From Gammaproteobacteria bacterium UBA6968 (GTDB lineage Bacteria > Pseudomonadota > Gammaproteobacteria > Pseudomonadales > Azotimanducaceae): a stretch of 10,718 nucleotides of DNA. Below the pieces are notes generated by a model. It saw only the letters and a list, made by a program, of their open reading frames with translations, was not told the DNA's origin and ran no database searches. Within the stretch, counting starts at the first letter, position 1. Each line of letters begins with the position of its first letter. A program made the translations under genes and the position numbers. Shown piece by piece: positions 2,667 to 6,041 of this stretch. The stretch spans positions 1 to 10,718 of the forward strand of contig DJYW01000094.1 in the NCBI GenBank assembly GCA_002450255.1, in the 5' to 3' direction.

Positions 2667-4628
2667 CTATTCGACCATTCGATGTGCATCAATTACGCCT
2701 TCAATCCCGCAAATATAGTCGAGTAAGACAAAGAACCCTAACCAGTCACCGAACTGAACCGTAATGGTGATTTCGGCGTGGGTCGGCGGCTGAGTGGTTG
2801 TCGCCGACGTCGCCAGCAGCGATAGATGGTTAATGCTTACCGCCTGGGTGACGTTGTTAAGCAAGCCATCTCGGTTTACAGCATAAATCGAAATACTTGT
2901 GGCTTCGCCCAAGCGACTTTCCGGCCTGCCACTATTCGTCAAAAGGCCCACAACAGCTGCGACGGCGGAGCGTTCTGCGCTACCGATCTGCGCGTAAAAG
3001 ACATCCGTCTGGATGTCGAAAACCGCTCGAATCAGTTCGTCTAGCGGCGCCTGAAAAGCCTCCCATAGAGCAGCACGAACCAGCAAGTCTTGCACCACAT
3101 CGCGGCCAACCGATATTTTTTGCGTGACGGTTAGGGTTCGGAAATACGCTAGAACTTTGCTTCTGGCACGATGGGTTTGCAGAATGCCTAGAGATGTCTC
3201 AGCCCAGAAACGCTGCGGAACTTGTTCTGCGTCAGTCAGCACCACGACCTGTTGACCAGTCGTCAGAGGCTCGCGCAACGATTTGACCACGCCATTGACC
3301 CGGCCACCGATGCACCGGTTGCCCAATTCAGTGTGTACTCGGTAAGCAAAGTCGAGGATCGTACTGCCCTCGGCCATAGCGACAACGTGCCCGTCCGGCG
3401 TAGTCACAAAGACACGATCTTCGACCACACGGCGCTGCAACAGATCTCCTAACGCCTCAAAACCATTGGCCTCTTCATGCCATTCCATTACCTGGCGGAG
3501 CCAATCCATTTTAGCCGCATACGCCTTATCTTCCTGCCGAGTCTGGCCGTGCCGATCTTTGTAAACCCAATGTGCGCAGACGCCAAGTTCAGCCTCGTAA
3601 TGCATTACTTCGGTACGAATCTGGATTTCCAGCGTTTGTCCGTCGTCCATGGTCACTGCAGTATGAATACTCCGATAACCGTTTTCTTTCGGCATCGCGA
3701 TATAGTCGTCAAACTCATGCGGAATGTGTTGCCAACGAGTGTGTACGACCCCAAGCGCGGCATAACAATCCGCCAGGTCTTTTACGACAATACGCACAGC
3801 GCGCGCATCGTAAACTTCCCCAATGGCAATGCCTTTACTCTGCATTTTGCGCCAGATACTGAAGATATTTTTTGCCCGTCCCTGTATTTCAGCGGTAATG
3901 CTCTGACGTGCCAGCAGGCCTTTTACCTCAACTTTCAACGCTTCGATCTGGGCTTCGCGCTCGGTGCGGCGCGCGGTCAGCTGACGCGCTATACCCATGT
4001 AAATGTCCTCGCGTAAATATCGCAGTGACAGGTCCTCAAGTTCCCACTTGAGTTGCCAAATGCCAAGTCGATCGGCGAGTGGTGCATAGACTGAGGCAAT
4101 TTCCTGCGCCATGTCACGGCGCACCTCATGCGACGCTTGTTTCGCTCGCCGCAACGCAATGACCCGCTCGGCCAGCTTGATCACCGCCACGCGGGCATCG
4201 TCGATCATGGCCACGAGCATGCGTTTGATGTTTTCGACCTGGCTCTCTCGCTCGCTGTCTAACAACGGAGCATCGGCCATAGTCAGCAGGCTAATGTTGG
4301 CCATCGCAACGACGCTCTCGGTAAGCTGATACGCATCCACACCGATGCAGGCAACTGCCTCATCACGCAAGGTCGGTGATTGTGCTTGCCAAGGTAAGGT
4401 GAGTGCGGCAATGACCGCAGGTTGGTCCATCTCAAGGGCCAGCATGATTTCGGCAAGTTCCATACCCTGAGCGAGCAACTCAGGCGCAGTCTCTGCAATT
4501 TGATGACAGCACTGATCGATAACCGCGATGTCCAGATCAACTTGTCTGGTTTTGAGGGAGGCGGACCATGCGGCCGAATCTGGTGTGCCGGCTTCGGTTA
4601 ACGGGATATCTTTTGCAACACTGACCAA
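2667..4628 (-). CDS. relA: RelA-type ppGpp synthetase lacking the zinc-finger domain
   Basis: RelA makes (p)ppGpp from ATP and GTP/GDP when uncharged tRNA occupies the ribosomal A site. At 653 residues it is about 90 shorter than E. coli RelA (744). Residues 1-190 form a degenerate, hydrolase-dead HD domain: no HDxxED is seen, as usual in RelA. The synthetase domain (about 190-360) is intact: GRAKNIFSIWRKM, YDARAVRI, and HEFDDYIAMPKENGYRSIHT with the RelA-type EFDD at 305-308. The TGS domain spans about 404-465 and a helical region about 470-560. The ACT domain starts near 576 (SISIYAVNRDGLLNNVTQAV). Between helical region and ACT only about 15 residues remain, so the CCxPIPGD...HRxDC zinc-finger domain is missing. 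The reading frame is continuous. TTG is chosen as start because MVSVAKD matches the family and GGAG lies nine bases upstream. Confidence 0.95.
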   Translation of the reverse strand: MVSVAKDIPLTEAGTPDSAAWSASLKTRQVDLDIAVIDQCCHQIAETAPELLAQGMELAEIMLALEMDQPAVIAALTLPWQAQSPTLRDEAVACIGVDAYQLTESVVAMANISLLTMADAPLLDSERESQVENIKRMLVAMIDDARVAVIKLAERVIALRRAKQASHEVRRDMAQEIASVYAPLADRLGIWQLKWELEDLSLRYLREDIYMGIARQLTARRTEREAQIEALKVEVKGLLARQSITAEIQGRAKNIFSIWRKMQSKGIAIGEVYDARAVRIVVKDLADCYAALGVVHTRWQHIPHEFDDYIAMPKENGYRSIHTAVTMDDGQTLEIQIRTEVMHYEAELGVCAHWVYKDRHGQTRQEDKAYAAKMDWLRQVMEWHEEANGFEALGDLLQRRVVEDRVFVTTPDGHVVAMAEGSTILDFAYRVHTELGNRCIGGRVNGVVKSLREPLTTGQQVVVLTDAEQVPQRFWAETSLGILQTHRARSKVLAYFRTLTVTQKISVGRDVVQDLLVRAALWEAFQAPLDELIRAVFDIQTDVFYAQIGSAERSAVAAVVGLLTNSGRPESRLGEATSISIYAVNRDGLLNNVTQAVSINHLSLLATSATTTQPPTHAEITITVQFGDWLGFFVLLDYICGIEGVIDAHRMVE

Positions 4629-4712: not shown

Positions 4713-6041
4713 TTAGCGCTGGAATACCCCGATCGTCTCTACGTGTGCGGTTTGGGGAAAAAGATCATATACCCCCACTTCTTGAAACGAAAATCCCGCA
4801 TCCAAAATGATTTTAGCGTCATCAGCGAATGTCGCTGGGTTACAGGAAACATAGACGATGCGCGACAGCTTGGTTTGGGCAAGCCAGTTCGCCAAATGCG
4901 GCCCAGCACCGCTACGGGGCGGATCTAATAACAGCGCGTCGTAGGCGCTACTTGCCTCGCTTTGGCTGCTAACGTTCGGTAAGGACTCAGTCGAGTACAA
5001 ATCCGCCACGCCAAACCGAGCTTTGCCCCCCAGACGATTGCGGGCCGCGTTGACCTCAGCCATGGCGACCGCAGCGTCGCTAAATTCAAGTCCGTAAACC
5101 TGGGCACCCAGGCGTGCGGCAGGCAGGCTGAAGTTACCGACGCCACAAAACAAATCCAGTAGTTTTAGACCCGGCAACGGGTGCAAGTAACCCATCACTG
5201 TGGAAACCAGCTCCCTATTCATTCGCGTATTCACCTGAATGAACTGGTCTGGGAAAAAGCCTAGTGTCAGCCCATAGTCCTGTAACTGATAAGTCAGGTG
5301 CTGCGGTGGCGCCTGGTTAAAAACATTTGCCAAACTGTCGTAACCCTTGCTCTGCAATAACAGCTCAACCCGTTGCTGCCTGGCAAAATCTTGTAACAGC
5401 CCGAGGTCCGCATCCGAGAGCGGTTTGAGATGCCGCAACATCACACAAATATCGAGATCCCCCTGGGCAAATTCAATTTGTGGGACCGCATCGGCGATTG
5501 ATAGTTGAGGTAGTAACTGCTGGAGTGGGACCAATAAGCGACTAAGCTCCGGCGTGAGCGTCTGACAGTGGCTGATCTGAGCAACTCGACTGCTAAAAGA
5601 CTCGCGAAAACCTACCAGCACGCGATCACCCAAAGCTCGCACGCCGAGCCGCGCTTTACGTCTGTAGCCAAGGCGCACCTCTCCAACTGGTTTGCGCCAT
5701 GGCAGCGAATCCGGCTCGATGCCGACTCGCGCCAGTTGCTTATGCAAGCCTGCTTCTTTATGTCGCAGCTGCGCCGCGTAGCTCAGATGATGCAGGCTAC
5801 ATCCGCCACAGCGAGGAAAATACTCGCAGGCAGAGGGCTGTCGATCTGGGTGTGCGTCAGCCAGCCACTCTCCATCCGCAAAGCGAATACCGCGACGACG
5901 CTTTAAAATACGAGCCTTGACCGTCTCACCGGGCAGCGCGTTACGCACCCATACCGGGCGCTCGTTTAACTCACTGTGGCCTAGACCGTCCTCGCCTAAC
6001 TCAGTAACAAGCAGCTCAACTTCCGTAGGTTGTTTACTCAC
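4713..6041 (-). CDS. rlmD: 23S rRNA (uracil-1939-C5) methyltransferase RlmD
   Basis: RlmD (RumA) methylates U1939 of 23S rRNA using SAM. The 442-residue protein has an N-terminal TRAM domain (about 1-60) and a 4Fe-4S site. The cluster cysteines are C72, C78 and C81 (CEYFPRCGGC) plus C159 (ISHCQ), spaced as in E. coli RumA. The SAM-binding motif LLDLFCGVGNFSLPAA spans about 294-309. LLDPPRSGA (about 371-379) and the catalytic-cysteine motif YVSCNPATF (C400) follow. The C-terminal FPQTAHVETIGVF holds the general base E436. These favour RlmD over the related RlmC and TrmA. A GTG start is used, with only a weak GGGA upstream. relA starts 84 bases downstream, the same neighbour as in Pseudomonas. 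A small GGGC/GCCC hairpin follows the stop without a T tract. Confidence 0.94.
   Translation of the reverse strand: MSKQPTEVELLVTELGEDGLGHSELNERPVWVRNALPGETVKARILKRRRGIRFADGEWLADAHPDRQPSACEYFPRCGGCSLHHLSYAAQLRHKEAGLHKQLARVGIEPDSLPWRKPVGEVRLGYRRKARLGVRALGDRVLVGFRESFSSRVAQISHCQTLTPELSRLLVPLQQLLPQLSIADAVPQIEFAQGDLDICVMLRHLKPLSDADLGLLQDFARQQRVELLLQSKGYDSLANVFNQAPPQHLTYQLQDYGLTLGFFPDQFIQVNTRMNRELVSTVMGYLHPLPGLKLLDLFCGVGNFSLPAARLGAQVYGLEFSDAAVAMAEVNAARNRLGGKARFGVADLYSTESLPNVSSQSEASSAYDALLLDPPRSGAGPHLANWLAQTKLSRIVYVSCNPATFADDAKIILDAGFSFQEVGVYDLFPQTAHVETIGVFQR

Follow-up and report, generated by a model that had tools for sequence, protein, structure and literature searches.

The relA gene and its domains

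The DNA considered here, referred to as the window, is a stretch of 10,718 nucleotides (positions 1 to 10,718 of contig DJYW01000094.1, assembly GCA_002450255.1) from Gammaproteobacteria bacterium UBA6968, a marine-type member of the Azotimanducaceae in the order Pseudomonadales. Its minus strand carries a relA gene for a long RelA/SpoT homologue (RSH) that has lost the zinc-finger domain (ZFD, also called the CC or RIS domain) and kept the ACT domain. The gene is an orthologue of Escherichia coli RelA without the ZFD only. A sequence-only reading of the window had described an unbroken frame with recognisable synthetase EFDD site, TGS, helical and ACT domains, and this description holds: the frame is open, and the domains are recovered by Pfam, together with an AlphaFold2 model for the helical domain (Table 1).

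The synthetase domain (PF04607) scores 131 bits and contains EFDD at residues 305-308. The TGS domain scores 60.9 bits and includes the equivalent of E. coli H432. ACT_4 is matched at residues 577-650 with 29.0 bits (cut-off 27), and a custom ACT profile matches with 68.6 bits. The HD domain is degenerate in the alignment, HDxxED being missing as in E. coli RelA. The TTG start is plausible, given the MVxV start of several relatives and a GGAG about 10 nt upstream. The best NCBIfam match is PRK10872 (GTP diphosphokinase RelA) with 466.6 bits, below the curated cut-off of 728; its best stretch stops at residue 518, before the site of the missing domain. Genuine RelAs can thus score under family cut-offs, a warning for annotators.

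Table 1. Features of the window at and next to relA
Feature	Positions	Strand	Evidence
relA, 653 aa, TTG start, ZFD-less long RSH	2667..4628	minus	open frame, Pfam, custom ZFD profile
HD_4, pseudo-hydrolase without HDxxED, residues 43-191	4056..4502	minus	Pfam, alignment to E. coli RelA
RelA_SpoT synthetase domain with EFDD, residues 250-359	3552..3881	minus	Pfam
TGS with E. coli H432 equivalent, residues 406-465	3234..3413	minus	Pfam, alignment
Helical (AH/HEL) domain, residues 486-565, of which 555-565 correspond to linker helix 2	2934..3173	minus	AlphaFold2 model, alignment
Short linker at place of ZFD, residues 566-575	2904..2933	minus	AlphaFold2 model, alignment
ACT/RRM domain, residues 576-650	2679..2903	minus	
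rlmD-like 23S rRNA methyltransferase gene, upstream of relA	4713..6041	minus	

Absence of the zinc-finger domain

The ZFD is cleanly lost from the window RelA and the ACT domain is kept, as the sequence-only reading had claimed; profile searches and alignment agree on this. RelA_AH_RIS is undetected by Pfam in this protein even at E 10, and a custom ZFD profile, for which 29 RelA/SpoT proteins with the domain were used, does not match it with all HMMER filters off. A profile hit to the finger, which would have refuted the loss, was therefore not obtained from either source, and the protein is a RelA variant and not a canonical six-domain long RSH. Its cysteines stand at residues 40, 41, 94, 288, 351, 439 and 640, so that C439 and C640 are indeed the only ones in the C-terminal 220 residues.

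In the AlphaFold2 model, built from a 16-row alignment (mean pLDDT 78.5, pTM 0.43; helical and ACT blocks at pLDDT 82-86), the helical domain ends with a helix at 555-565 and the first ACT strand begins at 576. The linker is thus about 10 residues long; the sequence-only reading had put the step between the two domains at about 15 residues (561-575). The modelled ACT superposes on the ACT domain of Mycobacterium tuberculosis Rel with an rmsd of 1.2 over 77 residues. In the alignment, the equivalent of E. coli 566-666 comprises 8 residues in the window RelA versus 85-100 in 34 ZFD-bearing RelAs, the shortest linker among 73 aligned RelAs.

E. coli RelA (NP_417264.1, 744 aa) shares with the window protein the dead HD, the EFDD synthetase, the TGS with H432, the helical and ACT domains and an upstream rlmD, and the best PDB relatives of the window RelA are 5iqr and 5kps. 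The difference is a block of 66 residues (597-662, boundaries as cut in the present analysis) between the helical and ACT domains, which is missing here.

Natural losses of other C-terminal domains have been described. RelAs of Francisella and Methylotenera have also lost a single C-terminal domain, but in these it is ACT and not the CC domain, the opposite of the window RelA (PMC3153485). The SpoTs of Haemophilus ducreyi and Actinobacillus pleuropneumoniae carry an internal deletion and keep ACT, but they are SpoTs and have also lost the helical domain (PMC3153485). In the part of Atkinson et al. 2011 that was available, the rare exceptions among long RSHs are RelAs without ACT and SpoTs without the helical and CC domains, and a RelA without the CC domain alone is not named among them (PMC3153485). 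A search of openly licensed papers, by which absence is unproven, returned no report of a RelA without the ZFD only, and none that deals with the stringent response in Pseudohongiella. As far as the literature found shows, a RelA that lacks just this domain and keeps ACT would be a new variant.

Distribution in the genus and family

Complete RelA frames are present in 25 of 37 genomes of the same genus (the window's own included), and all 25 are open and ZFD-less; in the others relA is split, partial or not found, and one further genome (G075) gives a through-match across the helical-ACT junction. These same-genus RelAs are 44-50% identical to that of the window. Beyond this genus, RelA is ZFD-less in four genera of the family (g23, g24, g25, g342) and keeps the ZFD in three (g337, g339, g340). 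A ZFD match is found in 0/120 of the best homologues listed for the window RelA, a set that includes the window's own protein and two short or truncated ones.

The window lies on a draft genome of 187 contigs, and an artefact of assembly or sequencing might be suspected behind the deletion in this one copy. The loss is common to 24 other same-genus genomes and to other genera, and none of the best homologues listed has a ZFD match, so that this explanation is out, its probability being practically nil. Full-length genes in close relatives, which the sequence-only reading had named as a sign of such a deletion, were not encountered; the relatives have the short form.

Over the whole set of RSH frames, 41/143 are without a ZFD match and 40 of these retain ACT; the remaining one (L171) comes from a locus cut short, with ACT missing too. 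The set contains duplicates: L002 and L004 are one gene, and L021 and L023 recur as L093 and L094, whose contigs are those of the same-genus genomes G029 and G031. It derives in part from a scan of named-record contigs that gave at least 589 stretches, with 80 of 586 confirmed loci used. ZFD-less RelA is also seen in a metagenome-assembled genome (MAG; L092) that bears the name marine gamma proteobacterium HTCC2089, and in MAGs labelled Pseudomonadales, Proteobacteria or Gammaproteobacteria (L093-L096, L133).

A junction profile, A2, was made over the helical-ACT junction from 8 rows (6 from the window's family, 2 of the Pseudohongiella type). It gives through-matches in 17/390 genomes of the order, namely 11 of the window's family and 6 of Pseudohongiella's genus, and 3 more partial ones. 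Among the matches listed for 323 genomes of the class, the sole full through-match is the window's own; the junction columns are crossed in part by G278 (a 747-aa frame whose locus, L190, carries a ZFD) and by G241 (a 730-aa frame with one stop). Among 299 genomes of the phylum, the own genome alone passed E 1e-24. A2 misses G141 and G193, both ZFD-less by alignment, and its counts are therefore lower bounds.

Other variations were noted in these RelAs. The motif LPG[MI] recurs before ACT in some same-genus proteins (e.g., L005, L010, L011) and is missing from that of the window. In family f36 the RelA frames reach an unusual length of 845-872 aa and include the ZFD (L046, L047). A single SpoT-like RSH, with RelA not found, is present in G117/G173, another genus of Pseudohongiella's family, in G060/G100/G132, in G077, in G044, and in G592 and G719, which belong to two genera of the window's family.

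A second loss in Pseudohongiellaceae

RelAs without the ZFD are also found in genus g47 of family f44, where the protein has about 680 residues and is ZFD-less in 6/6 genomes fetched. This group is called Pseudohongiella here on the names returned by a protein search with its member L038: P0151 (Pseudohongiella sp. O18, a record not marked as MAG) is 81% identical to L038 and ZFD-less, and P0195 is named Pseudohongiellaceae. Among the 120 best homologues listed for L038, 39 have a ZFD match, and losers and keepers of the domain are thus close kin. One of the 39, a Pseudohongiellaceae-like RelA (P0223, 733 aa), has only half a finger, the CC half being lost and the HRPDC half retained. Some RelAs of the group are intermediate in length, and the apparent last strand of the ZFD remains in them (LIEMDW in P0195 versus LIEVNW in P0201).

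Like the window RelA, the Pseudohongiellaceae proteins (675-717 aa) have lost the ZFD and kept ACT, H432 and the catalytic residues. They differ in the 22-41 residues that remain at the deletion, against 8-21 in the window type, in the retention of D675, and in having homologues at 62-72% identity that still carry the ZFD. The different deletion ends, the kept D675 and these ZFD-bearing homologues indicate a separate loss.

A tree of 73 RelAs (39 ZFD-less, 34 ZFD-bearing) over 627 columns outside the ZFD points the same way. Descent of every ZFD-less RelA from one loss is rejected (delta lnL 172, AU p 0.0024), and one loss in the window's type (p 0.41) and one in Pseudohongiellaceae (p 0.124) are each allowed. 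On this tree the ZFD was evidently lost from RelA at least twice, independently; as a single loss in Pseudohongiellaceae is allowed, two losses are claimed and not three. The clade-wide and convergent character of the loss lies beyond what could be seen from the window by itself.

A single clade for every RelA of the window's GTDB family, the ZFD-bearing ones included, is also rejected (p 0.0025). The family's ZFD-bearing RelAs (genomes G572, G650 and G702; loci L223, L226 and L228) group apart from the ZFD-less ones, which speaks against a simple story. The window-type branches are long, and long-branch error or gene replacement are possible causes of this separate grouping.

SpoT, neighbouring gene and partner rRNA

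The window genome has just two genes with a RelA_SpoT domain, relA and spoT, so that the second long RSH for which the sequence-only reading advised a search is present. This SpoT (735 aa) has HD with HDxxED, TGS, AH_RIS and ACT, and a complete CC...HLEPC zinc finger. By motif check, the CC...H...C finger is kept in the SpoT of 16/16 ZFD-less genomes from which SpoT was fetched (the window's own, G112, G169, G141, G193, G080, G146, G197, G218, G556, G576, G735, G667, G631, G685 and G612). Nine of the 16 were among the 29 sequences of the ZFD profile, and the motif, not the profile, is therefore the evidence in this case. Since SpoT keeps its finger throughout, the loss is specific to RelA.

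The gene upstream of relA in the window is rlmD, and E. coli K-12 has rlmD there too. It was found on 30/40 window-type loci (two repeat contigs included), 6/6 Pseudohongiella loci and 72/86 ZFD-bearing loci; the fetched flanks are 1.5-3 kb, and misses are not absences.

The RNA partner of the ZFD, the A-site finger of 23S rRNA (H38), is readable in 18/56 genomes, comprising G018 and G141 of the window's family, 3 Pseudohongiella and 13 others. Over the span compared, from CCGGGGG (E. coli 853) to ACCGG, an indel within the finger occurs in 0/18 genomes, 5 of them ZFD-less. In the tested relatives, the partner rRNA has thus been neither lost nor shortened along with the ZFD, and the RNA gripped by the ZFD is still present.

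Conserved residues and erosion of the GRG loop

The residues G251, D275, D308, D309, E335 and H432 (E. coli numbering) are unchanged in 39/39 ZFD-less rows. In the EFDD motif of window-type proteins, E is found in 22/24 and F in 23/24. Among ZFD-bearing RelAs, the finger positions C612, C613, H634 and C638 are unchanged in 34/34 rows, and the equivalent of R629 is R or K in 21/34. In E. coli, R629 faces the A-site finger (PMC7058999).

The loop around R629 reads GRG or GKG in 70/73 named ZFD-bearing loci. The three others are L139 (TRG), L168 and L170, of which the latter two group with the ZFD-bearing RelAs of the window's family. In these two and the family's own three (L223, L226, L228), GRG/GKG occurs in 0/5 and a basic residue in 1/5; among homologues of the Pseudohongiella protein with a complete zinc finger, GRG/GKG occurs in 0/38. 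This pattern suggests that the grip on rRNA, i.e., the GRG loop, may have eroded before the ZFD was excised. The tree sets a limit to such an order of events, as within the family it does not join ZFD-bearing and ZFD-less RelAs as sister groups. In two other ZFD-bearing Pseudomonadales lineages (L037, L043), the finger cysteines are kept and the GRG loop is lost, so that erosion of the loop is not limited to kin of the losers. L037 and L043 are candidates for the next ZFD loss.

How a RelA without the zinc finger may work

The TGS histidine H432 senses the CCA end of tRNA, and in the E. coli model RelA first binds the empty A site. On the ribosome, ACT itself contacts the A-site finger and L16 in E. 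coli, and linker helix 2, which precedes the ZFD, packs on ACT (PMC4974054). Excision of the ZFD could therefore leave the packing of helix on ACT intact. Substitutions in the ZFD of Bacillus subtilis Rel reduce recruitment to the ribosome, and according to the authors do not completely abrogate activation; with R619E (R629E in E. coli) recruitment is lowered, and they suggest that deacyl-tRNA offsets this (PMC7058999). The ZFD substitutions C612G, D637R and C638F each leave E. coli RelA fully able to complement a relA deletion on SMG (PMC6719525), and residual RelA function remains when the A-site finger is deleted (PMC5829649).

The best explanation, to which a probability of roughly two in three is given, is that the window RelA is a ribosome-activated enzyme gated by deacyl-tRNA, with weaker standby binding, its biochemistry being read from the anatomy, the conservation and the convergent loss. 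Such a RelA would still make (p)ppGpp on starved ribosomes. TGS would hold the CCA end of the deacylated A-site tRNA, the helical domain and linker helix 2 would run directly into ACT, and ACT would still sit between the A-site finger and L16. Recruitment would then depend on deacyl-tRNA, which would make the protein a stricter sensor of lower affinity. Weaker ribosome binding is thus the best supported of the three possibilities raised by the sequence-only reading; retention for another signal appears less likely, with the CCA-sensing histidine and the catalytic residues kept in 39/39 ZFD-less proteins.

Several observations weigh against this explanation. In E. coli, D675 of ACT touches L16; at the equivalent position, 14/24 window-type RelAs have N, so that the seat of ACT may also have changed, and R670 is unconserved even among ZFD-bearing RelAs. 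In the AlphaFold2 model, single domains are reliable and their arrangement is untrustworthy at the pTM of 0.43. In the rRNA, a one-base gap lies just past the finger in G018 and G141 (the ZFD-bearing G055 and G041 have one likewise, at about the same place), and at 85% identity these two genomes are the furthest of the 18 from E. coli in this stretch. The window's own genome yielded no 23S match, and the finger was read in relatives only. The literature search found no biochemistry for a ZFD-less, ACT-keeping RelA.

The altered D675 could also mean that these RelAs have left the ribosome and act as ribosome-independent or protein-regulated (p)ppGpp synthetases, their ACT sensing a small molecule or a partner; ACT domains of metabolic enzymes indeed match the modelled fold. 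This is unlikely, however, since it is not evident why a synthetase off the ribosome would retain the TGS and helical domains, the CCA-reading histidine (39/39) and, in 15/15 Pseudohongiellaceae, D675. It is still less probable that relA is decaying and that ZFD loss is one step in shedding a dispensable gene. The long window-type branches and the related genera mentioned above, in which RelA seems lost and a SpoT-like RSH alone is left, would fit such a course, but the 25/25 complete same-genus frames are open, the checked catalytic residues are invariant in 39/39, and the ZFD-less form is old, judging by the 44-50% identity within the genus. A new ribosome anchor in place of the ZFD, provided by the short linker, an altered ACT or another protein, is very improbable: N at the D675 position and the LPG motif in some same-genus linkers could hint at it, but the window RelA, with the shortest linker of the 73 (8 residues), is devoid of LPG, and no extra domain was found in it by Pfam.

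Meaning for RelA and the stringent response

Beyond the gated, ribosome-activated RelA preferred here, a broader proposal can be put forward tentatively, at somewhat less than even odds: the ribosome anchor of RelA may be evolutionarily removable, at least two Pseudomonadales lineages having lost first the GRG loop and then the ZFD, with recruitment only together with deacylated tRNA. It is equally tentative that such RelAs, keeping the tRNA sensor and ACT, would have no standby on vacant ribosomes, an order of events unlike the E. coli model in which the empty A site is bound first.

A natural loss of the ZFD only, which occurred at least twice and left the tRNA sensor in place, separates anchoring from sensing. 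The deletion constructs in the available parts of PMC6719525 and PMC7058999, in which ACT is removed, or ZFD and ACT together, do not separate the two. As the record of P0151 is not marked as MAG, a strain may be available, and the need of RelA for its grip on the ribosome is testable in natural variants.
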